This document shows, one piece after another, positions 1 to 13,196 of a stretch of 13,196 nucleotides of DNA. The stretch spans positions 1-13,196 of the forward strand of contig JACNFQ010000041.1 in the NCBI GenBank assembly GCA_014384545.1, written 5' to 3'. The position numbers and the translations under genes are program-made. The stretch's first letter is position 1. The number at the start of each line of letters is the position of its first letter. The DNA comes from a bacterium (lineage in GTDB: Bacteria > UBP7 > UBA6624). The notes under the pieces were generated by a model. It did no database searches and had not been told where the DNA came from. It was given only the letters and a program-made list of their open reading frames with translations.

Positions 1-61
1 CTCTAACCCAAACGGGTGGTGGGGCGCCATTTGGACCGAATGAACCTCCTATTAGTGTCAT
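1..61 (-). CDS. Possible 5' end of a divergent gene, cut by the window edge
   Basis: On the reverse strand an ATG at 61 opens a frame that runs without a stop to the left edge, giving about 20 residues that begin MTLIGGSFGPNG and continue Pro-rich (APPPVWVR). A GGAAAG lies 5 bases upstream of the ATG as a weak ribosome site. The same frame is open upstream as far as a TGA at 217, so non-ATG starts at 169 (TTG), 127 (TTG) or 112 (GTG) are also possible. No family is recognised from so short a piece. It could be a real divergent gene or a chance open frame. Confidence 0.28.
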   Translation of the reverse strand, partial: MTLIGGSFGPNGAPPPVWVR

Positions 62-238
62 GAATACTTTCCATCGGCGTCCATAGGGGGCTAACGATTT
101 CCAACCCCGCACACCGCAATCCCTCAAAAGACAGGCGGCACGGGTCAGAGCCCGAAGTGTGGTATTCAAGGCGTTTATCCTTGGATCTTTATCGGTGTCC
201 CTGAAATGGTCGGTTCAACGAATCGAAAACTTATGCCC

Positions 239-267
239 TTAACTTGGACTTGTTTCGTTTGTAGAAT
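239..267 (+). promoter_or_regulatory. Weak sigma70-like promoter candidate for the ABC gene unit
   Basis: A -10-like TAGAAT at 262-267 lies 17 bases after a -35-like TTAACT at 239-244. Initiation would fall near 274, just before the ribosome site at 277-281. The -35 match is poor (4 of 6) and nothing else supports it, so this is only a candidate. The rest of 62-292 shows no RNA gene or repeat. Confidence 0.2.
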
Positions 268-276
268 GGACGAAAC

Positions 277-281
277 GGAGG
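277..281 (+). promoter_or_regulatory. Ribosome binding site GGAGG deciding the start at 293
   Basis: GGAGG lies 11 bases before the ATG at 293. It favours 293 over two in-frame alternatives. The ATG at 206 has no purine-rich site in front of it. The ATG at 356 has an AGGAGG only 1 base upstream, too close to act. Confidence 0.55.
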
Positions 282-292
282 TTTTATCAATC

Positions 293-1555
293 ATGACAGA
301 TCCTTGGAACGAATCAGATGGTCCAAAAGAAGTAGAGAGTACAAAAGCAGGAGGCATGGACCCCAAAACGTGGGTGTGGGTGATTCTCTTGGTGGGCGCC
401 CTTTGGTTGACTCAAGGAGGTGGTGGTGGAGAGAAGACAACCGCCACACCAGGTGGTGTCTCGGTTGCCGGTCAGGCTGATGGTCCCCTAGCCGAGGGTC
501 TCCTTATGCGGGTGGCGATTCCTGAAGAGGGTCGTTCTTTGGTGGAGGAAGTTAGTTTAGAGATAGGACCGTTGTCGTTTAGAGAGGGTTTGACGGCACG
601 GATTGAACTGCGGAAGGGTGCCACCCTGTACCCAGGTCCTGCGGATGAAGGTGAAGTCGGTGTTTTGGCCTCGATAGATGACTTTGATATAAAGGTCTTG
701 TGGTGGGATGATTTGGCGCCCGAACCTGCCGACTTATTAGGCATGGTGCGGATGATGGGCTTTGACTTGCAACCGATCTTAGATGCGTTGATTGGATCTG
801 AGTTTGGGTATACCCTTACATCCCGAGGTGCTTTCTTGGGTATGGATCCTGAAAAAGCCGCTGCTGTAGCGCAGCGTGTAAGTGCCGCTGCTGGCTACCC
901 GTTGCCTGAAGAGGAGTTGAGCAAAATGGTGGAGACCCTCGAAGAGAGCAAGTGGGAACTTCGAGAGAACCGAGAAGAGATGCTCGCGTTCTTGGACGAG
1001 GCTGGTGCAACGGGCGCATTCCCATTCCTTGAAGGGTTTTTTCCTGAAGACGTTGTCACAGGAGAGAGCCGATGGGGTTGGGAGCTATCAGACCTAATGG
1101 AAGTCGTGGAGGGTCTTGGAAAGATGGGGCAGGAAGGTGTTGAAGCTGAATTGGAAGCGTCATGGGGCGAATTTGCAGTTCTTGCATCACTCTTGCCCGA
1201 CTTTGGGTGGAGCCTTGTACCCGTGCGGGTAGAGGGTGCTTTCCTCGTTTTGGCGTTTGAGGCTCATGGCGAGTGGGACTTTGAAGAAATGATAGCCGAA
1301 GCCGAGCGTTTGGCAGAAGAAATCAAAGATTTACCATCTCCTGGTACAGATGAGGTTTTCCCCCTCCATCTAGCCTTAAAGGGGAATGGCGAAGTGATGA
1401 TTGAGATCGCTACCGGAATCCCTCACGCTATGGAAATAGATCTCGTCCTTCAGATTGATGGTGTCAGTCCAGCAGGTCTTGAAGGGCTGATTGAAGAAGG
1501 TACAGAAGTCTCGTTCCCGGTTCATCTCCACAGCAAGTTGAGCCCCGCAGCCTAG
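293..1555 (+). CDS. Unrecognised single-pass membrane protein linked to an ABC transporter
   Basis: This is a 420-residue protein of unknown family. From the chosen ATG it has a short hydrophilic N-terminus (residues 1-26), one hydrophobic segment (about 27-40, WVWVILLVGALWLT), a five-glycine run, then a long acidic domain. The middle part (about 180-290) is Glu-rich and probably helical. The last 65 residues alternate hydrophobic and polar residues like beta strands (FPLHLALKG, MEIDLVLQIDG, VSFPVHLHSKL). I see no cysteine, no lipobox and no catalytic signature. A single N-terminal anchor would place the bulk outside the cytoplasm, as in ABC accessory proteins, but orientation is inferred. 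It ends in TAG immediately followed, in the same frame, by the TTG start of the ATPase gene, so the two are surely co-expressed. A role as substrate-handling or adaptor partner of the transporter is inference from position only. Confidence 0.85.
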   Translation: MTDPWNESDGPKEVESTKAGGMDPKTWVWVILLVGALWLTQGGGGGEKTTATPGGVSVAGQADGPLAEGLLMRVAIPEEGRSLVEEVSLEIGPLSFREGLTARIELRKGATLYPGPADEGEVGVLASIDDFDIKVLWWDDLAPEPADLLGMVRMMGFDLQPILDALIGSEFGYTLTSRGAFLGMDPEKAAAVAQRVSAAAGYPLPEEELSKMVETLEESKWELRENREEMLAFLDEAGATGAFPFLEGFFPEDVVTGESRWGWELSDLMEVVEGLGKMGQEGVEAELEASWGEFAVLASLLPDFGWSLVPVRVEGAFLVLAFEAHGEWDFEEMIAEAERLAEEIKDLPSPGTDEVFPLHLALKGNGEVMIEIATGIPHAMEIDLVLQIDGVSPAGLEGLIEEGTEVSFPVHLHSKLSPAA

Positions 1556-2479
1556 TTGACTTCTCCGTTTGTTTCTAAGGGTGCTAAGCGCCACTTTGGA
1601 AAAATCCGTGCCTTGGATGGGATGGATTTCCATGTGGAAACGGGTGAGTTTGTAGGGTTGATTGGACCCAATGGTGCTGGCAAAAGCACCCTGATTGGTG
1701 CTTCTTTGGGATTGGTCCGTTTGCAAGAAGGAGAGATTTACCTGTTTGGTGACGCTCCTGGATTGCCTTTGGGGAAGAGTCGAACAGGGTATTTGCCCGA
1801 GTTTTTCTTTTCGCCGGACCACCTTACCCCCAAAGCGTATTTAGAGGAAATCGGTACTTTGTATGGGATGAGTCGCAGAGAAGTCGCAGTGGCAGCCAAA
1901 CCCCTCTTGGAGCGGATGGGCTTGGCAGCCCATTGGGACCGTCCCTCGGGGAAACTCTCCAAGGGCTTATTGAGACGTTTAGGGATCGTCCGCAGTCTCT
2001 TTCACGACCCCGAACTCCTTATCTTTGACGAGCCCGCTTGGGGTTTGGACCCTATGGGTAGAAAAGCGCTTTCAGAGATCTTGGATGAGGCAAAGTGCGC
2101 GGGCAAATCTCTTGTCCTCTCTAGCCACAACATGGAGATGGTAGAAGGGGTTTGCGACCGGTATGTCTTTGTGGATGAAGGAAAGGTCCAGTGGGAAGCA
2201 ACACCAGAGGACTTGAGGGTAGAGAGCTCCGCAACGATTATCTATCGGTCTTTGGGTCCAATCAAGGGTGTTGATGGTACTTCTACTGGGGATGGTCGGA
2301 TGAAGGTCGTTGTCGCTCCGGAACAGAAGAGCAGCGTTCTGCGTGCACTTTTGGGTGCAGATGCTGAGGTGTTAGAAGTCAATGAATCCCGCACAGAGTT
2401 GATTGATTGGGTGGTGGAACGCCTAAAGGATGCGAAAGCGACTCCATCGCCCGCCAAGGAGGAAAGAGAGGATGCGTAG
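1556..2479 (+). CDS. ABC transporter ATP-binding protein (ABC-2 exporter type)
   Basis: This 307-residue nucleotide-binding subunit would power the permease encoded next. All core motifs are visible: Walker A GPNGAGKST (37-45), a Q-loop-type YLPE (79-82, Glu instead of Gln, common in ABC-2 exporters), signature LSKGL (134-138, a diverged LSGGQ as often seen in this subfamily), Walker B LLIFDEP with D158 and E159, D-loop GLDP (163-166) and H-loop H191. Residues after about 225 form an accessory C-terminal domain rich in charged residues. The start is TTG at 1556, directly after the TAG of the previous gene. The next in-frame starts (TTG 1613, ATG 1622) would remove the first strand of the ATPase fold. 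No good ribosome site precedes the TTG, so translation probably depends on reinitiation by ribosomes finishing the upstream gene. The substrate cannot be told. Confidence 0.95.
   Translation: MTSPFVSKGAKRHFGKIRALDGMDFHVETGEFVGLIGPNGAGKSTLIGASLGLVRLQEGEIYLFGDAPGLPLGKSRTGYLPEFFFSPDHLTPKAYLEEIGTLYGMSRREVAVAAKPLLERMGLAAHWDRPSGKLSKGLLRRLGIVRSLFHDPELLIFDEPAWGLDPMGRKALSEILDEAKCAGKSLVLSSHNMEMVEGVCDRYVFVDEGKVQWEATPEDLRVESSATIIYRSLGPIKGVDGTSTGDGRMKVVVAPEQKSSVLRALLGADAEVLEVNESRTELIDWVVERLKDAKATPSPAKEEREDA
2456..2462 (+). promoter_or_regulatory. Ribosome binding site AAGGAGG for the permease gene
   Basis: A strong AAGGAGG lies 9 bases before the ATG at 2472, inside the 3' end of the ATPase gene. It selects 2472 over the in-frame ATG at 2430, which would add 14 arginine- and lysine-rich residues that merely reflect the overlapping gene. 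Confidence 0.75.
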
Positions 2480-3347
2480 TCTTGCTCCCTCTTTGCATCG
2501 GGTCGTAGCCATTGCCCGCATAACGCTACAAGGTGTCGTTGGTAACCGGCGTAGTATGCTCCTTGTATTCTTGGGGGCACTCGTCTTTGGGTTGTCCACT
2601 TGGGCCATTGGGCAAAACGCGGACGCAAGTGTCGTTATCTTTACGTGGAGTGGCATCGGTTTCCTCTTTCTTGTCATCTGTTATCAGTCTGCTGATGGAT
2701 TAAGGGAACAGTTACGACAGAAGACATTAGGACCCATTATTACCGGTCCGCTCACTCGGACTGAATATACATGGGGTCGGTTCTTAGGTATTTGGTTACC
2801 AGGGTGGCTTACGTTGTCTGCACTCTTTTGGCTTCTCTTTGAATATGGCGTCGTGCGAACCAAGGGATACGAGCTGATTCGAGAAATAGAGATGTTTACT
2901 CGTCAAATGGGCGAGGGTTTACCAGAGGAGTTTGGGTTACCGGAAGCAGCCAAGATGGCGTTCCTGCTGTGGGTTCTTCTTTCCACCTTCCTTTTCTGTG
3001 TTTCAGGGGCATTGTTCGCCCTTTCGGGAATCATGAAACAGAAGTTGTCTATCGTTACGACGTTCGTTGTTTGGCCGTTGGTCTCTCATTGGTGGCGGTG
3101 GAATCTGCCAGGATGGGAACTATGGCCTCAAGAAGCTGTAAGCGCTGCAGAATCCGCCCAAATGGCCCAACTAACGGGGTGGCCTAGTCTGCCCAATGTG
3201 TGGATGATTCCCGTGATCCTCTTCCGGGGGGCAGGTGCCGACCAGCTTACGCTTTACTTTAGTATTCAGTCTGTCGCTTGGGGGTCTCTCTTCCTATGGC
3301 TATCGCTATTGGCGTTTCGTCGGCTCGACCTCTCTCGTCCCCAATAG
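2472..3347 (+). CDS. ABC-2 type transporter permease
   Basis: This 291-residue integral membrane protein has about six hydrophobic segments (roughly 28-47, 53-72, 104-126, 161-184, 192-208 and 259-283). Between the second and third lies the typical ABC-2 coupling region, a charged helix followed by a conserved-looking stretch (TLGPIITGPLTRTEYTWGR, 85-103). A hydrophilic, probably external loop covers about 130-158. This is the layout of ABC-2 permeases such as NosY-like or Na+/multidrug exporter subunits, which pair with an ATPase like the one just upstream. Its ATG overlaps the last 8 bases of the ATPase gene. Only one permease is present, so the transporter is probably a homodimer of this protein plus two ATPases. 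The substrate is unknown. Confidence 0.92.
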   Translation: MRSLAPSLHRVVAIARITLQGVVGNRRSMLLVFLGALVFGLSTWAIGQNADASVVIFTWSGIGFLFLVICYQSADGLREQLRQKTLGPIITGPLTRTEYTWGRFLGIWLPGWLTLSALFWLLFEYGVVRTKGYELIREIEMFTRQMGEGLPEEFGLPEAAKMAFLLWVLLSTFLFCVSGALFALSGIMKQKLSIVTTFVVWPLVSHWWRWNLPGWELWPQEAVSAAESAQMAQLTGWPSLPNVWMIPVILFRGAGADQLTLYFSIQSVAWGSLFLWLSLLAFRRLDLSRPQ

Positions 3348-3360
3348 GGGTGAACACCCC
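3347..3360. terminator. Short GC hairpin between convergent genes, possible bidirectional terminator
   Basis: GGGGT (3347-3351) and ACCCC (3356-3360) form a 5-bp stem with a GAAC loop, beginning at the last base of the permease stop codon. It is the only dyad in the 39-base gap between the converging permease and protease genes. No T-tract follows on either strand and the stem is short, so support is weak. Confidence 0.25.
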
Positions 3361-3386
3361 CCATTCCATCCCCTCCTAGTCTTTAT

Positions 3387-6300
3387 CTAGTGGAGGTCGC
3401 GCAGGAGCACTTTGATGGCGCGTTCAAGTTGAGGGTCTTTCCCAGCGGCTTCATCTTCAGGGTGGAGGAGGACAAGGATGTCAGGGATTGCCGCACCGTT
3501 CTCTAGATTCGCACCTAGTTTATCGCCATCAGCCACATACCAGCCCCTAAACGGGAACCGCATACTGGAGCCATCAATAAGGCGTCGGCTACCGGTACTA
3601 ATCACAGCACCATGGGTGGGAACACCCACCACCTTTCCTCGCTCCAATGTCTGGACAGCATGGCTAAAGATCTCGGCGTTGCTATACGAGTTCTCGTTCG
3701 CCAAAACGATGATGGGGTGGGGCCAAGCATACATCGGTAATCGGCTTTGTGGATAACCGAAACTGCCTTCTGGTGCACCACGTGGAATGGTATAGGCGTG
3801 GCGCTGCACCATCAGCATAGCGAGAAGGTAGTCGGTCGTCCACCCTCCTCCATTGTCACGCACATCAATGACCAATCCTTCCTTGCCGTGTCCAATCAAG
3901 TAAAGCTCTGCTTCGAACCGATCTAAACTACTTTGGTTCATGCCACGAATGTGGACATAGCCAAGTCGTCCTTCAGAAAGTACATCTACCTGCTCTCTAT
4001 TCCCTTCAACCCAAGCCTCGTACCGCAATCCCGTTATCGTTCCGGAGGACGAAGGGCGAACAATGAGTTCTCGTTCGTCTTCTAAGGGCAAAACCTCAAG
4101 CGTAACTGTTGTGCTCCACGCTTCCCCATAGGAGATATGCGTACTGTCGGCAAACTGCAGCGTCAGGGTATGTTCGCCAGGTTCCAATTCAAGGGTTGTA
4201 TCGGAAGAGCCATCCCCAAAGTGAATATGTGAATCGTCAGAAAGTACAGTCTCTCCTTCGGGAACGAAAGCTCCATCAATAATCAGGTGGTGGTGCCCCG
4301 TGCCCTCTTCGCCCTCGCCAGCGGGCATCACCTCTTTGCCAACGACGCCCATCTCCACCGAAATAGGGGAATGGAATGCACCGCCCTCCAAGTCGTTTAG
4401 GAAGATAACCCCCTCTTCGGGAATCTCTTGCACCTCTCCATCCACCTCGGTTGTAGGCCCCCAAAGTTGAAGGCGCACAGGATCCCCTGAGAGGTTGGTC
4501 AATAGACGGTGGAGATTGTTCCCAAGTACGGGGGACCCATTGATAGAGAGTACCGTTTCGCCAAGTTGAGGACCATCCTCAAAGTCGCTAGGACCCTCCA
4601 TCACAACACCCGTAATATCAAGTCCTTCTTCACCCAAAGTCCAGTCCAGCCCCAACATTCCTGTGGATTCACGGCTTTCATCCACGGCCGGCACCCGACC
4701 GTAATACCCCAAGTGGCTTCCGTTGAGTTCGCCCAACATGATGTCAATCACCGCATCAAAGTCGCGGGCGTGTGCTGCCGAAATAGCCCAAGGGAGGTAA
4801 CGATCGCGTATTGCATCCCAATCGGCACCGTGGTGGTTTTCGTCATAAAACCCCCGATCCATCGTCCTCCATGCTTCAAGGAATACCTCTGTCCTCCGTG
4901 CAACTCGATTCAATAAGTATTGGATAGAAAAGGGGTGGGTTTGTTCATTCTTTGACGTCGTTTTCGTGCTTCCCACTTGTCCCTGTAATGTCAGGTATTC
5001 CACACGGTCTCCTTTTTCGTTGAGGCGGAGCGACCTGGGGTTCTTACCACTCGTGATCTTCAAGGGAGACCCACCTGAAAGAGAGATGGAGTAAAGGTCA
5101 CTTCCATCGTGCGAACCCCTAAACACCACCCGGCTACCATCATGCGTCATGACCATTTCGGTTTCGTTCCCATCCAGCCGCGTCAACGAGCGGATGCGTA
5201 GGGGGAGACGATCGGTATCAATCTGAACCCAAGTCTCGGGTTTCTCTTTCTTTTGAGCCTCGGCTTCTTCTTTCCAGAGGTCGTCTCTTTCCCGTTTCGT
5301 CAGGTCTTCGTCGCTCTCTCTAAGGAATAGATACCAAATATCGGCACTATCCCCATATCGACGGGTAGAAAAGGCTAAGACACGCCCGTTTTCACTCCAA
5401 GCAGGGTAAGTGTCGTAGTCGGGATGGGCAGAGAGATTCAAGGGAGATTCCGAGCCATCGGCGGGGGCAATCCAAACATCGCTGTTGTGCTCTATATCTT
5501 CTACATGCCAAGCCAACCACGAGCTATCGGGGCTCCAAGAAACCCAAGGCCAATCCCATCCCGTACGAATCGTCGTGGGTTCGCCTAGAGAAGGAGCGTC
5601 CCAACCAGCGCTTTCCTCATCTTCTTTACCCGTGGGGATGGATCCTTCACCCCCCTCTTCTTCATCTTCTTCACCAGCCCGGATGGATCCCTCACCCTCC
5701 ACTTCCTCGTCCTCATCATCCTCAAGATTGACGCCCTCTTCATCTCCTTGAGGCTGGTCAGAAGATGGAGATTTCTCTTTTTGGGGCGAGGGTAGGGTTA
5801 GGGGTGCTATCAACAGCGTCCCATAATCCTCCACATAAGACAAGGATTCGCCGTTGGGGGAAAGGACAGGATGGTGGTGGGGCATGGGTCCGTTCGTCAA
5901 GGGGTACGCTTCCCAACTGAGTACATGGCGTGGGTCCGTCTCCGAATCGGAGGGGCGTGCTGCCCAAATCTGCTCGGTGCCCGTCCTATCAGAAACAAAA
6001 AGGAGTGTGCGACCATCGCCAGCCCAAGATACAGAAGACTCCATCTCTCTGGTCGTCGTGACACGATGGCTCTCTTTCAAGTCCAAGTCCACCACCCAAA
6101 TCTCCCCATCCACAGCGACTGCCATCGTCTTCTTGTCTAGGATATCAAAAGATTGAGCGCTGTCTCCAAACGAGACCCACTCGGCATCGTTCTGGAGTGA
6201 ATCTCCCAACGCTTCTAATGGTAGGGTGCTAAGCTCTTCGGTTTGGGTATCAAAGAGGGTAATGCCGCCTCCTACTTCCATCGCAATCAACGAGCCATCC

Positions 6301-7100
6301 CACGAGATATTGGCATCTCGGATGCTCAAATCTGTAAAGCTCGTCTTTTTCCGAGCACGGTTTCCTTCGGGCGTTGATGACCAAAGATTATGGGAATCTC
6401 CACCACGCTCACTGACAAACCATACCCTCTCTCCATCTGGTTCCCACATAGGGAGATGGTCGTTCCCCTCAAAGTGGGTTAGTGGAGTGGCATCTCCTGA
6501 AGCAAGATCAGTACTCCAGATTTCCCTATTGGCGCTCCCTAAGTAACCGCGTCGGTATCGGCTGTTCGTTCCTCGAACAAAGAGGAGGGTGTTCCCATCA
6601 GGGGAAAGCGTAGGTTGGTAACCGAGGAGGGGGGACAAGGGTTCGGGCGTAGTGGGGCTCTCAACAGAAACGGAGTAGATTTCAGACATCCTGAACACAG
6701 TTCGGCTCCGTCTTGAAGAAAACAGAATGGACTTTCCGTCAGGAGAGAACCCCGAAAGCGAATCTGTTCCCGAAAAGAAGGTCAATCTTGTGGGGGCTCC
6801 TCCCTCGCTATCCATGATAAAGATGTCATCATTCCCCCAGCGATCACTCGCAAAAGCCAAGAGCGAACCATCGGGGGACCATGCGGGGCTGTGGTCGTAA
6901 GCTGGGTGAATCGTGAGCCGTGTCGCTCGACCTCCATCAGATGAAACGGTCCAAATATCACCTTGCCAAGCGAAGGCAACAAGAGAGCCATCAGGAGAAG
7001 GTGAGGGGTCTCTAGGAAAGACCATTTCTGCCCCACCAAGTTGGGCGGTCCAAAACAGGAGAATAGGGATCAGAATTCGATTTTTCATAACCTGAATCAT
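3387..7100 (-). CDS. Secreted tricorn-like S41 peptidase with an inserted DUF4399-like domain
   Basis: This is a 1237-residue tricorn-type serine protease, a family that cuts peptides in an enclosed chamber. Order of parts: a signal peptide (about 1-24, hydrophobic core ILIPILLFW, ending LGGA); a TolB/WD40-like propeller with repeated SPDG motifs (about 27-320); a second propeller (about 330-705) interrupted by an acidic insert (442-500); a helical C1 domain (about 725-801) with H796 in LNGSH; a PDZ domain (814-881, resuming about 1009); a DUF4399-like insert (about 898-1004); and the S41 catalytic domain (about 1040-1237). The catalytic domain has DVRDNGGG (1079-1086), the probable nucleophile S1140 in SYSNAE, and E1200 in LENGAAIPDI. 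These match the Ser-His-Glu set of archaeal tricorn, so it is probably active. The signal peptide implies the periplasm or outside, unlike cytoplasmic archaeal tricorn. The start could also be the ATG at 7088, which leaves a cleaner signal peptide; neither has a clear ribosome site. It converges on the ABC unit and diverges from the pseudouridine synthase gene. Confidence 0.95.
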   Translation of the reverse strand: MIQVMKNRILIPILLFWTAQLGGAEMVFPRDPSPSPDGSLVAFAWQGDIWTVSSDGGRATRLTIHPAYDHSPAWSPDGSLLAFASDRWGNDDIFIMDSEGGAPTRLTFFSGTDSLSGFSPDGKSILFSSRRSRTVFRMSEIYSVSVESPTTPEPLSPLLGYQPTLSPDGNTLLFVRGTNSRYRRGYLGSANREIWSTDLASGDATPLTHFEGNDHLPMWEPDGERVWFVSERGGDSHNLWSSTPEGNRARKKTSFTDLSIRDANISWDGSLIAMEVGGGITLFDTQTEELSTLPLEALGDSLQNDAEWVSFGDSAQSFDILDKKTMAVAVDGEIWVVDLDLKESHRVTTTREMESSVSWAGDGRTLLFVSDRTGTEQIWAARPSDSETDPRHVLSWEAYPLTNGPMPHHHPVLSPNGESLSYVEDYGTLLIAPLTLPSPQKEKSPSSDQPQGDEEGVNLEDDEDEEVEGEGSIRAGEEDEEEGGEGSIPTGKEDEESAGWDAPSLGEPTTIRTGWDWPWVSWSPDSSWLAWHVEDIEHNSDVWIAPADGSESPLNLSAHPDYDTYPAWSENGRVLAFSTRRYGDSADIWYLFLRESDEDLTKRERDDLWKEEAEAQKKEKPETWVQIDTDRLPLRIRSLTRLDGNETEMVMTHDGSRVVFRGSHDGSDLYSISLSGGSPLKITSGKNPRSLRLNEKGDRVEYLTLQGQVGSTKTTSKNEQTHPFSIQYLLNRVARRTEVFLEAWRTMDRGFYDENHHGADWDAIRDRYLPWAISAAHARDFDAVIDIMLGELNGSHLGYYGRVPAVDESRESTGMLGLDWTLGEEGLDITGVVMEGPSDFEDGPQLGETVLSINGSPVLGNNLHRLLTNLSGDPVRLQLWGPTTEVDGEVQEIPEEGVIFLNDLEGGAFHSPISVEMGVVGKEVMPAGEGEEGTGHHHLIIDGAFVPEGETVLSDDSHIHFGDGSSDTTLELEPGEHTLTLQFADSTHISYGEAWSTTVTLEVLPLEDERELIVRPSSSGTITGLRYEAWVEGNREQVDVLSEGRLGYVHIRGMNQSSLDRFEAELYLIGHGKEGLVIDVRDNGGGWTTDYLLAMLMVQRHAYTIPRGAPEGSFGYPQSRLPMYAWPHPIIVLANENSYSNAEIFSHAVQTLERGKVVGVPTHGAVISTGSRRLIDGSSMRFPFRGWYVADGDKLGANLENGAAIPDILVLLHPEDEAAGKDPQLERAIKVLLRDLH
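4089..4409 (-). other. DUF4399-like domain inside the tricorn protease
   Basis: Protein residues about 898-1004. Seen directly: MPAGEGEEGTGHHHLIIDG (a PAG turn, then GHHHLIID at 935-942), SHIHFGDGSSDTTLELEPG (957-975) and EHTLTLQFAD (977-986). From memory of the family, this order (PAG, GHHHLLID, HxHFGxGQ-TxxxLxLxPGxHTLxL) is the hallmark of DUF4399, a small beta domain usually found alone in exported proteins. Its two ends sit between the PDZ strand VRLQLWG (875-881) and the strand ELIVRPSS (1011-1018), which would normally be close together. H936-H938, H958, H960, H977 and H988 could bind a metal; this is inference. Confidence 0.75.
5607..5696 (-). repeat. Two 45-bp tandem units in the acidic insert of the protease gene
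   Basis: Two adjacent 15-residue units (469-483 GEGSIRAGEEDEEEG and 484-498 GEGSIPTGKEDEESA) match at most positions, and each carries the same GGATCC-containing DNA word exactly 45 bases apart. They lie in a wider Glu/Asp-rich stretch (442-500; 5601-5777) that interrupts the second beta-propeller. This looks like a recent in-frame duplication in a surface loop. Confidence 0.75.
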
Positions 7101-7126
7101 AGTCTAAAAAACTTTAGGATTCACCT
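7101..7126. promoter_or_regulatory. 26-base AT-rich gap between divergent start codons
   Basis: The protease and pseudouridine synthase genes start back to back here. The gap contains AGGA (7116-7119), a ribosome site 7 bases before the forward ATG, and a dyad CTAAA (7104-7108) / TTTAG (7113-7117). A second dyad, TGAATC (7093-7098) / GATTCA (7118-7123), extends into the protease gene. Both promoters must overlap the gap or lie within the opposite gene. I could not place convincing -35/-10 pairs. Confidence 0.35.
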
Positions 7127-7861
7127 ATGCGCATAAACAGGTTTTTAGCCCTTTGTGGTATGGGTTCGCGCCGCGAAGTTGAAAGTCTCGTGCTTGAGGG
7201 GCGGGTTACATTGCGAGGGCTAGGAGGGATTTCGCCTATTTCGTCTCTTTCCACTCAAGTAGATGCCGAATGGGCAGAGGTCTTTGTGGATGGCGAGCGC
7301 GTCCGTCCTCGAAAGAAGCGTTTTATTCTCTTGTACAAGCCTGTGGGGGTCGTCACCACCAAGAAAGATCCATTGCGACGACCGATTGTGATGGACTTGC
7401 TCCGAAAGACAGACCGAGACCTCTTTCCCGTGGGACGGCTGGACATCGATAGTGAAGGGTTGCTCTTGTTTACGAATGATGGTGAGTTGGCTCAGCGGAT
7501 TGCACACCCCAAACATGGTCTTACAAAGAGGTACGAGGTGGAGGTGATTGGCTCTGTCCACAAGGAAATCTTGGACAGAATGAAGGCAGGCATACGAGAC
7601 GAAGGTGAGATGTTGAAAGTTCGAGAAGCTCGACAAGTTAGAAAGCACGGCAAGAAGACGACGATCTCTTTGGTCTTAGGAAGAGGTAAAAAGAGAGAGA
7701 TTCGCCGCCTGTGTAAGAGGCTGGGGCTGAAAGTCCTGCGGCTAAAACGGGTGGCGATTGGACCCCTAGAAGACCCTTGGCTGGAAAGAGGAAGGTGTAG
7801 ACCATTGAAAGATGCCGAAATAGAGGCACTTCGTCTGTCCTTGAACCCCAAACAACGGTAA
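7127..7861 (+). CDS. rluB: RsuA/RluB-family rRNA pseudouridine synthase
   Basis: This 244-residue enzyme isomerises a specific uridine in ribosomal RNA to pseudouridine. An N-terminal S4 RNA-binding domain (about 1-60, starting MRINRFLALCGMGSRREVE) is followed by the catalytic domain: YKPVGVVTT (70-78), the active-site motif GRLDIDSEGLLLFTNDGE with catalytic D106, HPKHGLTKRYEVEV (127-140), and the closing GRGKKREIRR (185-194) with LKRVAIGPL (206-214). Length and motifs fit the RsuA/RluB/RluE/RluF group. RluB, which modifies the 23S rRNA peptidyl-transferase region, is the best guess from the KPVGVVTT and HPKH features, but the target base cannot be proved. The S4 domain carries a few extra residues around 31-40. 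The ATG at 7127 has AGGA 7 bases upstream and matches the usual N-terminus of the family. The stop lies 10 bases before addB, suggesting one operon with the repair genes. Confidence 0.93.
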   Translation: MRINRFLALCGMGSRREVESLVLEGRVTLRGLGGISPISSLSTQVDAEWAEVFVDGERVRPRKKRFILLYKPVGVVTTKKDPLRRPIVMDLLRKTDRDLFPVGRLDIDSEGLLLFTNDGELAQRIAHPKHGLTKRYEVEVIGSVHKEILDRMKAGIRDEGEMLKVREARQVRKHGKKTTISLVLGRGKKREIRRLCKRLGLKVLRLKRVAIGPLEDPWLERGRCRPLKDAEIEALRLSLNPKQR

Positions 7862-7871
7862 ACTGTTTTAT

Positions 7872-10421
7872 ATGCCTGAACCCCTTCACATAGGCTCTCC
7901 CGAAAAAGTCTTCGGTAAACTCTGCGACCATTTGGTCAAGGAGCGAAAGAAGGACCCAATGCGCCCCCTATTTGTCTTATTGCCATCCAATAACGAGTCA
8001 GCTGTCTTGAGTCGATGGGCCCTTAAGGCCAAGCTGGGTGGCGTGATTCCCCTTACGCCTATTGATTATGCCTCCCGCTCTTTCTTAGCGAATGGGATGA
8101 TACTTTCTAAGCCATCTCCTGCAGAGGAACGAAAGGCGTTACGACAAGCTTTGCGAAAGATTCAACCCCTCCATCCTGAACTTTCTCGCTGTGCAGAATC
8201 AGGAAAGACCGGTGCCTTAGCAATACTCCACAACGCTGTGTCCCGATTGGTTGAATGGTTGCCCATCGTTGATCCAGGGCACCCGATTGAGGAAAGTCCC
8301 ATCCTTGCCCTTACATTGGCATGGGAAGAAGTCTGGAGAAAAGAGACGACATATATTCCCCAGTCCTTATGGATGGGGAGGGCAAGGCTTTTGCCTCGTC
8401 AAGCACCTGCTCCAGATGCCGTTTGGGGGCTCGCTGACTTAAATCGAACTGAAGAGGACTTATTCAGCCCGTGGCGAAATGAAACGCCGTGGTTTGTACC
8501 TTCTCCTGCCCACGATGAAATAGGGGCGCGCCATTTGGACAGGCTCGTTTCATTCCTCCAATGTGAAATCGTTGATGAAGGAGCCGAAACAGCCCCTGCA
8601 AATTGGCATATTTTCGGGCATATCTCCGAGTCTGTTTCCGTTGCTTATCGGGAGTGTGATGAAGGGGGCGGCGTATTGGCTACACCACCAAGCCTGATCG
8701 AACCGGTTGGATTGTTGTCAACGATGCTCCTTCGTGGGCAGGCTCCACCTTTGGTTCGCCCATTGGGTTCGACGCCTGCTGGTTTGTGGGCACGGCTTTT
8801 GAGTGGAGGGGAAGGCATGGGGGATATTGATCGAAGGGAAGTGATGGAAGCGATGAAAGCTAGAGGGTGGGGTGGCGAAGATTGGGAGAAAGCGACACGT
8901 CGTTTAGGGATTCAAAGGTGGGGAGAAGATCTCAACAGGCTAAGCCAAGCACTCGGTGGCGAAATCCCTCCTCCCAGAGGGTTGGGTGACAGCAAGAAGT
9001 GGGTAAAGAAGTTAAAAGAAGTCACTGAAAAAGTACGATGGGGGGATATTGATCGCACTCTGTTGACAGGACCAGATCCAAGGGGCCGAGAAGCGATTCG
9101 TGTTGCTTGGGGCGATGAAGGTAGTAAGTCCTCTTTGACAGAGTGCTTGATTCTAGAAAAGGCACCTAAAGAAGAGGGAAAGGGAGGTCGTCTGCCTCTT
9201 CCCTTGCGTGCGGCAGCGCTTAATCCTCATGGTCCCCTGCACCTGATTGGGATGACTGCCGATCGGTTTCCGGGGTCTCTAGATGCACAGATGCTCCAAG
9301 ATCATGCCCTTGAAACCCATTTGGAATTACCCGATGAAAGAGATCGCTTGCACGAACTCTCTTGGCAAGCTTGGTGCTTATCAACGACCCGGAACGGGAA
9401 ACCCACAGAGGTCTATACCGACAGTTTGGACGACCGGGGCGAAGCTCGATTTGCTACGCCCTTACTAGAACTTTCGGAGGGAAAGGAGGGCCACGGACAC
9501 ACACTCTTGCCTGTGGGACCAAGGTATAAGGCTCAAATCGCCTTATCTAAATGGGAAGGGAGCGGCGTAAAGGACGATAGATTCAAAGTGGAGCCATCCA
9601 ATGAAGGGATAGGGCTTCGGGTGACTTCCATTAGAGAAGGGGCTCCCCCCTGTCCTTTTGCCCATTGGGCATCTTTGGGTGGTGGCCCTGTTGAAGATCC
9701 ATCGGGAAGGCTTGAACCCACCAGTCGAGAATTGGGATCCGTATTCCATTTAGCTCTTGAAGAAGGTTGGCGGCTCCATGCGATGGGCGTTTCACTGACA
9801 GAGTCGGACTTCTCCGCGTTGATCCAGGGTGCCGTTCAATGGTTTCCTATGGGGTTGCAGGAGGCTGGACGATCAGCAACGGATCGGCTTGTTGTTGGTG
9901 CACTTAAGGTCTTTCATGCTTGGACAGAGGGCCCCTTGTCTGAATTTGAAGAGGGAGAAGCCGAGTGGTCCCCCACAAAGGAAGGCCTGCCCAAGGGTTC
10001 ATTCAAATTGCCAGGATTAGAGAGCGTTTGGCTGAGGGGAAAGATCGACTGGGTAGGAAAAGGACCGACATCGTGGTTGATGGTAGACTACAAAACGGGG
10101 ACGGGACCTAGAGAGACCGGAAAACCGTCCGATTTGACCCAAGCCGCTCTGTACCCCTTTGCGGGTTCACCAACCTCCCACCAGATTCGTTTTGCCTATT
10201 TCTACCCTCTAGAAACGAGGGAAGATCATCGCAAATTTGTCCTAGCAAACCCCAACCCCTTGGCAGGTCAGGGGTGGGAGACCTTGCGTGACAAGTTGAA
10301 TCTGTGGAAAGGCGATTGGGACGGGGGTTCAAGAGCACCAAAGCCCAGTGATAAGGGGTGCAAGTGGTGCGATTGGGCAGAGGCATGCCGCAAGGAAAAC
10401 TGGGAATTGTGGACCCAATGA
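7872..10421 (+). CDS. addB: AddB-like subunit of the AddAB helicase-nuclease
   Basis: This 849-residue protein would pair with the AddA encoded next to resect DNA double-strand breaks; AddB cuts the strand that AddA does not. The N-terminal part (about 1-560) has the look of an inactivated helicase-like fold (LFVLLPSNNESAVLSRW at 33-49; LHLIGMTADRFPGSL at 455-469) but no Walker A, as in many AddB proteins outside Firmicutes. The C-terminal PD-(D/E)XK nuclease is complete: G622 and H626 (GSVFH), D726 in GKIDWVG, D739 and K741 in VDYKTG, and Q757-x3-Y761. Four cysteines placed as in known AddB iron-sulfur nucleases are present: C594 in the CPFAHW motif, then C830-x2-C833-x5-C839, so a 4Fe-4S cluster that staples the nuclease is very likely. 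The protein is shorter than B. subtilis AddB (about 1160 residues). No ribosome site is seen before the ATG, so coupling to the upstream gene is likely. Its TGA overlaps the addA ATG (ATGA). Confidence 0.9.
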   Translation: MPEPLHIGSPEKVFGKLCDHLVKERKKDPMRPLFVLLPSNNESAVLSRWALKAKLGGVIPLTPIDYASRSFLANGMILSKPSPAEERKALRQALRKIQPLHPELSRCAESGKTGALAILHNAVSRLVEWLPIVDPGHPIEESPILALTLAWEEVWRKETTYIPQSLWMGRARLLPRQAPAPDAVWGLADLNRTEEDLFSPWRNETPWFVPSPAHDEIGARHLDRLVSFLQCEIVDEGAETAPANWHIFGHISESVSVAYRECDEGGGVLATPPSLIEPVGLLSTMLLRGQAPPLVRPLGSTPAGLWARLLSGGEGMGDIDRREVMEAMKARGWGGEDWEKATRRLGIQRWGEDLNRLSQALGGEIPPPRGLGDSKKWVKKLKEVTEKVRWGDIDRTLLTGPDPRGREAIRVAWGDEGSKSSLTECLILEKAPKEEGKGGRLPLPLRAAALNPHGPLHLIGMTADRFPGSLDAQMLQDHALETHLELPDERDRLHELSWQAWCLSTTRNGKPTEVYTDSLDDRGEARFATPLLELSEGKEGHGHTLLPVGPRYKAQIALSKWEGSGVKDDRFKVEPSNEGIGLRVTSIREGAPPCPFAHWASLGGGPVEDPSGRLEPTSRELGSVFHLALEEGWRLHAMGVSLTESDFSALIQGAVQWFPMGLQEAGRSATDRLVVGALKVFHAWTEGPLSEFEEGEAEWSPTKEGLPKGSFKLPGLESVWLRGKIDWVGKGPTSWLMVDYKTGTGPRETGKPSDLTQAALYPFAGSPTSHQIRFAYFYPLETREDHRKFVLANPNPLAGQGWETLRDKLNLWKGDWDGGSRAPKPSDKGCKWCDWAEACRKENWELWTQ

Positions 10422-13196
10422 AACTCCCGCGATTCATTGATGCCTCTGCAGGAACGGGCAAGACCCACCGTCTCACATGGTGCGCCTTATCAGCACTAGA
10501 ACAATCAGAGGATGTGAGAGCTATTGTCTTATGTACATTCACGGTTGCAGCAACGAATGAACTAAGAGAGAGAATCCGAAGAACCCTTCTTATGAAAGAT
10601 GAAGAGTTCTTCAAGTACGCCAAGGGAATGGACTTTTCACTCGAGGGGCTGGATCGCCAGGCATTGGTAAAACAGGTGCCCGCATTAGAGATTCGCACGC
10701 TAGATAGTTACTTCCATAGGTTGTTGAATAAGTTGAGCCCGGGGCAACTCTCTCGCATCCCAACGACACGAGAAGTCGAAGCTGTTCTTAGAGATAGTTA
10801 TACGACGTGGATGACCGAGGATCCTCAACGGATGGTGAGGTTTGGCAAAGCACAAGATGGAACAGTAGCAAAAGCGCTTCGACAATTGGCAGAGGGTGCT
10901 GATGGATATAGCGAAGAAGATCTGGTCGTTGCACTCCATACGCACGATTTGGGGCCCTTAACCCAAGCGGTCATTACCCAAGTGAAAGAATTGGTGGAAG
11001 AAGCTTTGGTCCCGCTAGGTTCGTCGTGGGCACCGACAGCCAGAAGTGGTGATCGAGTAAGACCTGTTAGAGAAGCACTCTCAGCTTGGTGTGAACGAAG
11101 TGGTGATGAAGCTGTAAGACTGGGCAAGGCACTAAAGAAGCTTATAGATTCGCTAATTGAGGTAGAAGGAGCACCCTTGGGACCCGTTTCTCTGCTTAAG
11201 GAAGCGAGAGAAGGGGTGCTAGGCTTGAATGACTTAAGAGATCCCAACGACCCCTCTAGATTGTCTTCGGATATCCTTCGATATATTCAGGTTTATCGAG
11301 AGGAGATGGAAGGGAGAGGGTTGATGGGTAATGGGCAGATCGCCGTGAAGCTCTTGGAAGCGTTAGAGAGTGCCCAAGACCTAGGCACGCCCCAACCCAA
11401 GTGGATTCTCGTAGATGAGTTTCAAGATACTTCCCCCTTGCAAGGGCGTGTGTTGGGTCGTATCCTTGAAATCATGGAGGGTTGGGGTGGGGGTAGTACT
11501 GTGGTGGGAGATGAGAAACAAGCGATTTATCAGTTTAGGGGTGCCAGTACCCAGCCCTTCATCAATTATAGAGAATCGGTTCCCTTGGGCAGAAGAGAAT
11601 CACTAGAAACATCTTGGAGGGCATCTCCTGCGACCTTAGCTGTTGTGGACTCGTTGATAGCACCTTTCCTTGGTAAAGAGGTCGTTGCGTTGGTGTCCGA
11701 TTCACAGGCAAGTCACCATGGGATTCGGCCTGAAGTCCCTCTCTCCATTTGGGCTTGTGCGCAACCCGAACTGTCAAAAAAAGGTAATTGGATCAAGAAG
11801 GGTCAAAGCGAGGGACAAAAGTCGTTGATTGATAGGGCGGAAGATAGTGTCGTCTTTCTTTCAGAATCTGAACCCGAAGATGAAATCCTCGTTCTAGGAA
11901 GGAAATGGCAAGATCTCTTGTCTTTGTCTAAGCGTCTTTCACGCAGAGGACTGCCCGTTCGCGTGGCAGGTGATCCCAACCTCTTTTCAGATCCTGATGT
12001 CCGTTCACTTGTCAGCACGCTGCGTGCTTTGGCTTGGCCCCAAGACAAGGTCCATAGGTTGGCTTGGTTGTTGGGACCAGCTTGGGCATTTACGGTAGAA
12101 GAAGTGGAGAAAGGAGAGGCTGAGGTTCAAAATGCGCTTGAGGCATTGGAGGGTTGGGCTGATGACTTGATCCAAGGGAGAAGCGCCGTGGAGGTGCTCT
12201 CTGAAATCATCTACGCCACAGGGTGGTTATATGGTTTGGGTGGCGATGAGCGTGCCCATGAACGACGGTTGCGTCTTTTGGCAGCGATGGAGTGGTTGAG
12301 GCTATCTCAGGAAGAAGGGAGTGGATTGACTGCGGGTGACTTGGCAGACCTCATGGAGAAGGGGAGAGAGATGGGCGATCGCGTGCATGCCCCGACGATT
12401 ATTGGAAAGGGCATAACCTTAAGAACACTCCATGGCGCCAAGGGGCTTGAAGCAGACCATGTGGTGTTGATTGATCCCGAGAGGAATGAACCCTTAGGCA
12501 AGGGGGGCTTGATTCTGCCACTGCGGAGCTTTGCCATGGGGAAACCAGCCAAGGGGAGGTATGAACCCCTTCCAGATGGGCAGTTAGGGGGGCTTTGGTT
12601 GCCCTTGCCTCATCCGGGAAACCCCGTTTGGATTAGCCAAGGCTTTATGGAAGCCTGGCGCCATGGGAGACTTGAAGAGGCGAAAGAGAGGATAAATCTG
12701 GTCTATGTGGGGCTTACTCGTGCAAAGAAGACGATTCATCTGGTGGTGAAGGGATTGCGTTCCCGTCAAGACCTCTTGTCCGAGAATCTCCTAGGTTCTG
12801 TCTATGCTAATCTGGGTGGGGACGCCGCATTGAATAGGATCATGGCTGAACCAGATCAAGAGAAGAGAATTGATTTATCGCTTGAAGTTCTAGAGAAGCA
12901 AGGTCTTGGGGTTGACGAGGCACATATCGTTTATCTCCCCCCAGCTGTCCGTTCAGCACCCGTCTATCAGTCAAAGCCTTCAGTAAGGGAAGAGATAGGG
13001 TGCGCGGTTCGTTCCATTGAAGAAGACGATCTGCCAGACGAGCAGGGGTGGGATGCATTGAGATGGGGGGATCAAGTGCATCGTGCGATGGAGATCTTGG
13101 GTCCCCCTGGTGGGGGAGGGAGGGAAGAGGGGTGTCACGTGGCACTAGAAGCGTCCGCAAAGATCGTGGGTGAAGGGGATCGCATCCCAGCGACGG
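10418..13196 (+). CDS. addA: AddA-like UvrD-family helicase-nuclease, 3' end missing
   Basis: The frame opens at an ATG overlapping the addB stop and stays open for 926 codons to the window edge, so the gene is partial. It encodes an SF1A DNA helicase. Walker A is ASAGTGKT (9-16), typical of AddA/RecB. Motif Ia is TFTVAATNELRERI (about 41-54). An early AddA-type motif, IRTLDSYFHRLL, lies near 91-102. Motif II is VDEFQDT (332-338), motif III GDEKQAIYQFRGA (364-376), motif IV SWRAS, motif V TLHGAKGLE (H672, K675), and motif VI VYVGLTRAKK (762-771, R768). Near the right edge, WGDQVHRAMEIL with H888 resembles the first motif of a RecB-type nuclease domain, whose catalytic DxK should lie just beyond the window. 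With AddB it would form the resection complex that feeds RecA. The region between Walker A and motif II seems somewhat short compared with B. subtilis AddA. No stop or frameshift is seen, and the helicase should be active. Confidence 0.93.
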   Translation, partial: MKLPRFIDASAGTGKTHRLTWCALSALEQSEDVRAIVLCTFTVAATNELRERIRRTLLMKDEEFFKYAKGMDFSLEGLDRQALVKQVPALEIRTLDSYFHRLLNKLSPGQLSRIPTTREVEAVLRDSYTTWMTEDPQRMVRFGKAQDGTVAKALRQLAEGADGYSEEDLVVALHTHDLGPLTQAVITQVKELVEEALVPLGSSWAPTARSGDRVRPVREALSAWCERSGDEAVRLGKALKKLIDSLIEVEGAPLGPVSLLKEAREGVLGLNDLRDPNDPSRLSSDILRYIQVYREEMEGRGLMGNGQIAVKLLEALESAQDLGTPQPKWILVDEFQDTSPLQGRVLGRILEIMEGWGGGSTVVGDEKQAIYQFRGASTQPFINYRESVPLGRRESLETSWRASPATLAVVDSLIAPFLGKEVVALVSDSQASHHGIRPEVPLSIWACAQPELSKKGNWIKKGQSEGQKSLIDRAEDSVVFLSESEPEDEILVLGRKWQDLLSLSKRLSRRGLPVRVAGDPNLFSDPDVRSLVSTLRALAWPQDKVHRLAWLLGPAWAFTVEEVEKGEAEVQNALEALEGWADDLIQGRSAVEVLSEIIYATGWLYGLGGDERAHERRLRLLAAMEWLRLSQEEGSGLTAGDLADLMEKGREMGDRVHAPTIIGKGITLRTLHGAKGLEADHVVLIDPERNEPLGKGGLILPLRSFAMGKPAKGRYEPLPDGQLGGLWLPLPHPGNPVWISQGFMEAWRHGRLEEAKERINLVYVGLTRAKKTIHLVVKGLRSRQDLLSENLLGSVYANLGGDAALNRIMAEPDQEKRIDLSLEVLEKQGLGVDEAHIVYLPPAVRSAPVYQSKPSVREEIGCAVRSIEEDDLPDEQGWDALRWGDQVHRAMEILGPPGGGGREEGCHVALEASAKIVGEGDRIPAT

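Follow-up and report, generated by a model that had tools for sequence, protein, structure and literature searches.

The tricorn protease of Thermoplasma acidophilum (PDB ID: 1k32 and 1n6d; MEROPS S41) and its bacterial homologues are composed of PD40 repeats, a Tricorn_C1 domain, a PDZ domain, and an S41 domain, and carry a Ser-His-Ser-Glu catalytic set. The C-terminal processing proteases, including the related S41 protease CtpB, likewise possess an S41 core preceded by a PDZ domain, which in CtpB gates a narrow proteolytic tunnel (PMC3808539). A protein of the candidate phylum UBP7 shares these tricorn features. It differs from the known tricorns, however, by a 128-residue DUF4399 insert in a hairpin of the PDZ domain, a signal-peptide-like N-terminus, and an acidic low-complexity segment, and from CtpB, which is devoid of propellers and whose PDZ domain harbors no such insert.

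DUF4399 (PF14347) is found elsewhere in small, apparently standalone proteins of the secreted or lipoprotein type, with frames mostly of 120-330 residues. The UBP7 protein resembles them in possessing the whole domain with its four conserved histidines; in contrast, the standalone proteins carry the domain alone and, among the genomes searched, it never lies within a tricorn. To our knowledge, there is no metal-bound DUF4399 structure or assay and no experiment on the domain, and a profile search of the PDB found no solved DUF4399 structure. Three papers of the literature searched mention DUF4399: one on Burkholderia thailandensis, where the protein is regulated (PMC12322963), one on Dunaliella, where it is an entry in a list (PMC6727038), and one in which a standalone DUF4399 protein is predicted to partner a DoxX membrane protein (ipTM 0.82; PMC13311259). 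The literature searched on DUF4399 nowhere describes it in a tricorn, in agreement with an earlier reading of the DNA alone (hereafter the sequence-only reading), which had taken the architecture to be undescribed.

The UBP7 tricorn-type protease

The window is the whole stretch of 13,196 nucleotides analysed here (contig JACNFQ010000041.1 of assembly GCA_014384545.1). ORF translation and Pfam identify in it a tricorn-type S41 protease of 1237 residues, encoded on the minus strand (3387..7100), as are all the protein features given below. Pfam delineates six PD40 repeats, Tricorn_C1 (residues 734-790), DUF4399 (915-1003), and Peptidase_S41 (1045-1195). With the PDZ domain, assigned from alignment and predicted fold, the order is that of tricorns: PD40 propeller repeats, Tricorn_C1, PDZ, and S41. 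The Tricorn_C1 match (PF14684; 4731..4901) reaches 54.5 bits against a cut-off of 24 and was also retrieved in the genome search. The first part of the PDZ domain (residues ~812-881; 4458..4667), placed by tricorn alignment and the predicted PDZ fold, ends with the strand VRLQLWG, and its last strand (residues 1010-1018; 4047..4073), placed by BLAST and alignment to tricorns, includes ELIVRPSS (1011-1018). The S41 catalytic core (3516..3968) scores 86.6 bits in Pfam and matches Thermoplasma tricorn with a phmmer E-value of 2e-30.

Alignment to Thermoplasma tricorn (1n6d and 1k32) pairs S795-H796 (4713..4718) with Ser745-His746, S1140 (3681..3683) with the nucleophile Ser965, and E1200 (3501..3503) with Glu1023, the catalytic residues of that enzyme. 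The Ser-His-Ser-Glu set is thus intact by alignment, which predicts an active protease. The N-terminus (residues ~1-24, minus strand, MKNRILIPILLFWTAQLGGAEM) resembles by eye a signal peptide, with cleavage near GGA/EM; the protein is therefore probably exported. Between parts of the propeller, residues 446-508 (window 5577-5765) form a strongly acidic, partly repetitive low-complexity stretch, EDDEDEEVEGEGSIRAGEEDEEEGGEGSIPTGKEDEE, which is missing from both UBP7 relatives described below. Profile searches find DUF4399 once and Tricorn_C1 once in the window's genome.

Site of the DUF4399 insertion

The sequence-only reading had recognized a DUF4399 pattern at residues ~898-1004 (window 4409-4089, minus strand) of a 1237-residue tricorn-like protease, and the motifs and coordinates it quoted are all correct. 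A Pfam search of the segment, the check it had proposed, returns PF14347 at residues 915-1003 (4092..4358) with 97.8 bits against a cut-off of 28 and an E-value of 4.8e-28 (103.7 bits in the genome search). The profile is covered nearly whole (model positions 1-90 of 91), and the core motifs PAG, GHxH, HxG, PG, and the last histidine, as seen in an alignment of 57 domains, are all present. A chance match is of no concern given this E-value, the presence of the insert in two independent relatives, and the strong purifying selection documented below.

The limits of the insert were defined by BLAST, MAFFT, and tblastn within a comparison set of thirty tricorn loci from other genomes, 28 other tricorns serving to delimit the inserted segment. 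The C-terminal half splits in BLAST into residues 726-881 and 1010-1236. In the closest homologue (L048), these two pieces correspond to subject residues 494-649 and 653-868, with three subject residues between them, and in an Alphaproteobacterial tricorn (L052) they abut in tblastn with zero bases between. In all tricorns aligned with MAFFT (those having the N-terminal BLAST piece), the counterparts of strands VRLQL and ELIVR are joined by a short turn. From these three observations, the inserted segment comprises residues 882-1009 (128 residues; 4074..4457), and by alignment it takes the place of the turn that joins the final two strands of the PDZ domain, within its last β-hairpin. VRLQLWG (875-881) and ELIVRPSS are thus adjacent hairpin strands of a single PDZ domain, as had been proposed from the sequence; the earlier placement of the insert was right, while its extent was given somewhat too short.

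Predicted fold of the insert

Two AlphaFold models were obtained. The first (residues 726-1237, 8-row alignment) is of low confidence overall (mean pLDDT 57, pTM 0.34), with blocks of the insert reaching pLDDT 67-90. The solved PDZ domains 4l8n, 8k2y, and 3stj align to model residues 89-293, pairing only 79-81 residues of this 205-residue span at 2.4 Å; since the alignment skips the insert, the PDZ domain appears to close around it in this low-confidence model. The insert itself aligns to the FnIII-like domain 3pe9 (2.3 Å over 84 residues) with a Z of 8.8, as well as to the Ig-like domain found in sulfite oxidases; the Z values are modest, and Ig-like folds are common. In the second model, restricted to the PDZ domain plus insert (9-row alignment, mean pLDDT 67), the insert reaches pLDDT 94 and is again Ig/FnIII-like (Z 8.8), the PDZ domain being poorly modelled. 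The WD40 structures of the PDB that matched the insert did so by adding up tiny repeat matches, and they were set aside.

These predictions strongly suggest that the insert is a separate Ig/FnIII-like β-sandwich, probably starting near residue 896, rather than plain PDZ or linker, which bears out the separate β-domain anticipated before any structure was predicted. Foldseek also returned weak matches to CopC (5icu at rank 3, E 0.012; 1m42, E 0.052). CopC-type periplasmic copper proteins are Ig-like sandwiches of similar size, but no sequence relationship was detected, and Pfam reports no CopC family match.

Conserved histidines

Histidine conservation was counted over the 57 DUF4399 domains from the loci gathered in this analysis. 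H936 and H938, which form an H-x-H motif (4287..4295), are each present in 57/57 domains, as is H988 (4137..4139), and H960 (4221..4223) is found in 56/57. Other histidine positions vary: H937 is retained in 39/57 domains, H958 in 29/57, and H977 in 45/57. An invariant H-x-H with two further histidines, carried by a small envelope domain, is what a metal site usually looks like. This pattern suggests that H936, H938, H960, and H988 form a His4 metal site, and the histidine-rich array of the UBP7 relatives (see below) points the same way. The metal binding envisaged in the sequence-only reading on account of the many histidines is therefore plausible and, at the level of sequence, well supported; the metal would most likely be copper or zinc. 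The four histidines could alternatively play a structural or catalytic role, or serve in pH sensing.

Across 12 loci with a standalone DUF4399 gene, the neighboring genes share no consistent function or metal theme. At one of these twelve (L079), CusB/HlyD-type and AcrB/CusA-type efflux genes (819-1943 and 5456-8626) flank the DUF4399 gene, a hint at metal efflux. Separately, the putative viral contig IMGVR_UViG_3300017815_000102 (L055) encodes a 696-residue frame (2260-4347, plus strand) with two tandem DUF4399 domains and a long (ASQTAMQEV)n-like repeat tail; a cupredoxin considered ahead of these two domains has no Pfam support.

Duplication and selection in the UBP7 relatives

Both relatives, from a sister genus, harbor two DUF4399 domains at the same PDZ site, a feature not recognized in the sequence-only reading. 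Copy 1 keeps the canonical histidines (GHFH, HIHY, GLH), whereas copy 2 has neither the H-x-H motif nor the last histidine. Between the two copies runs an array of the histidine-rich nonapeptide SNHEGHNSH (DNA unit of 27 bp), located inside copy 2, in the loop ahead of the LIIDG strand. It is interrupted in both assemblies: by a gap of 370 N in one, and in the other by two contigs that both end within it. One contig end carries four perfect copies, the opposite one 3.3.

Comparison of the two relatives by the NG86 method gives a dN/dS of 0.011 for copy 1, 0.019 for S41, 0.044 for Tricorn_C1 plus PDZ, and 0.10 for copy 2, values that are approximate since they derive from one genome pair with dS of 0.6-0.9. 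Of these four segments, copy 1 shows the lowest ratio, lower even than that of the protease core. The DUF4399 insert is under strong purifying selection.

Distribution and gene neighborhood

The fusion is present in 3/3 UBP7 genomes, all those of the phylum that were sampled. No other tricorn-DUF4399 fusion was found in ~980 genomes (290 across the domain, plus 346 and 345 from two single phyla). Tricorn_C1 occurs in 86 genomes of the 290-genome sample. The question raised at the outset, which tricorn homologues carry the insert, is hence answered for the genomes covered: those of UBP7. A tricorn search of viral contigs found none. Four fusion candidates with DUF4399 frames of 541-1520 residues (G449, G598, G352, and G450) proved to be GC-rich open frames running into ordinary standalone DUF4399; another frame (G558, 322 residues) contains two DUF4399-like stretches and no tricorn.

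The same genes flank the tricorn gene in the three UBP7 genomes, namely those for an ABC ATPase, an ABC permease, a pseudouridine synthase, and an AddB-like nuclease; the tricorn gene was therefore probably inherited vertically in this group. Several features of the neighborhood may be recorded besides. In the relatives, an extra gene, absent from the window, separates the tricorn gene from that of the ABC permease (L017, 2182-3318, minus strand; L019, 1086-2222, plus strand), and by eye it resembles an Old Yellow Enzyme-like flavin oxidoreductase. Upstream of the ABC ATPase/permease pair, the window carries an ORF of 449 residues (206-1555, plus strand) whose start resembles a membrane anchor and which matches no Pfam or NCBIfam family; a stop-free protein stretch at the equivalent place in one relative (L017, 2-445) suggests that it is conserved. 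Beyond the tricorn gene, positions 7872-13195 (plus strand) encode a PD-(D/E)XK nuclease, which has no NCBIfam match, followed by a UvrD/RecB-like helicase whose start overlaps the end of the nuclease, as an AddB/AddA-like pair.

Role of the inserted domain

The UBP7 protein is a known type of protease with a real, lineage-specific, and strongly constrained domain insertion. The explanation that we favor, and to which we give about the same chance of being right as of being wrong, is that the domain forms a metal-binding arm on the PDZ domain of an exported tricorn and serves to tune the protease or to dock it. A serine protease of the tricorn type, probably exported, has gained a complete DUF4399 by insertion into the last PDZ turn, and the domain is most probably a small Ig/FnIII-like sandwich with a putative metal site made of H936, H938, H960, and H988. 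In the cell envelope, it would project from the PDZ domain as an arm that binds a metal, or else a metalloprotein or a membrane partner. Once bound, the arm could bring substrates to the PDZ domain or alter its opening, thereby coupling degradation to metal status, and in the sister genus the arm would be doubled and equipped with a histidine-rich, metal-chelating linker. A narrower version of this mechanism, in which metal loading of the arm switches the PDZ domain and hence the protease, helped in the sister genus by the histidine-rich linker, is considered rather unlikely.

Among the alternatives, a pure docking or tethering role is best placed, albeit tentative. The domain would recruit the protease to an envelope partner, such as a DoxX-like membrane protein or the surface layer, its histidines being structural or holding a structural metal only. 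Ig/FnIII-like folds often serve as binding modules, and the predicted fold of the insert is of this type; moreover, the hairpin turn accommodates an added domain while the conserved PDZ strands are kept. The predicted pairing of a standalone DUF4399 protein with DoxX agrees with such a role, but the predicted interface involves an N-terminal helix, which is lacking in the insert, as this starts almost directly at the domain. Docking alone also hardly accounts for the histidine-rich repeat of the relatives.

It is less probable still that the domain acts as a gate or plug, covering the peptide groove or the mouth of the catalytic tunnel and physically controlling access. The sequence-only reading had raised such gating as one possibility, supposing that the insert would lie beside the substrate path of the catalytic domain, and docking to a surface as another. 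The insert belongs to the PDZ domain, the very domain that gates the tunnel of CtpB, but the tip of this β-hairpin is not known to line the groove, and other tricorns function without any insert. We also find it very unlikely that the domain is a passenger that does little in this protein and is simply tolerated by a permissive loop. The hairpin turn is indeed a permissive site, and copy 2 of the sister genus, with its histidine losses and its higher dN/dS, would suit such a role; the constraint on copy 1, however, and the retention of four histidines across two genera argue against it. Finally, an assembly chimera or a misread frame joining two unrelated genes can hardly be the explanation, for although the relatives are metagenome-assembled, their histidine-rich repeat being broken by a gap or by contig ends, and the window's genome is fragmented into 107 contigs, the ORF of the window is intact and gap-free, and the same arrangement with the same flanking genes recurs in two public genomes that were assembled independently (DLTY01000025.1 and PBAU01000003.1).

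The metal-binding arm is thus the reading retained here. By a clean natural graft, a giant protease has received an extra domain in its PDZ; every genome sampled from the candidate phylum carries the graft, and selection on it is strong. DUF4399 is widespread and has no known function, and the insertion links it to proteolysis in the envelope. If metal loading did switch the protease, this would be the first protease of the tricorn type to be controlled by metal, and DUF4399 would gain its first function. The proposed four-histidine metal site provides, furthermore, a testable hypothesis for the entire DUF4399 family.
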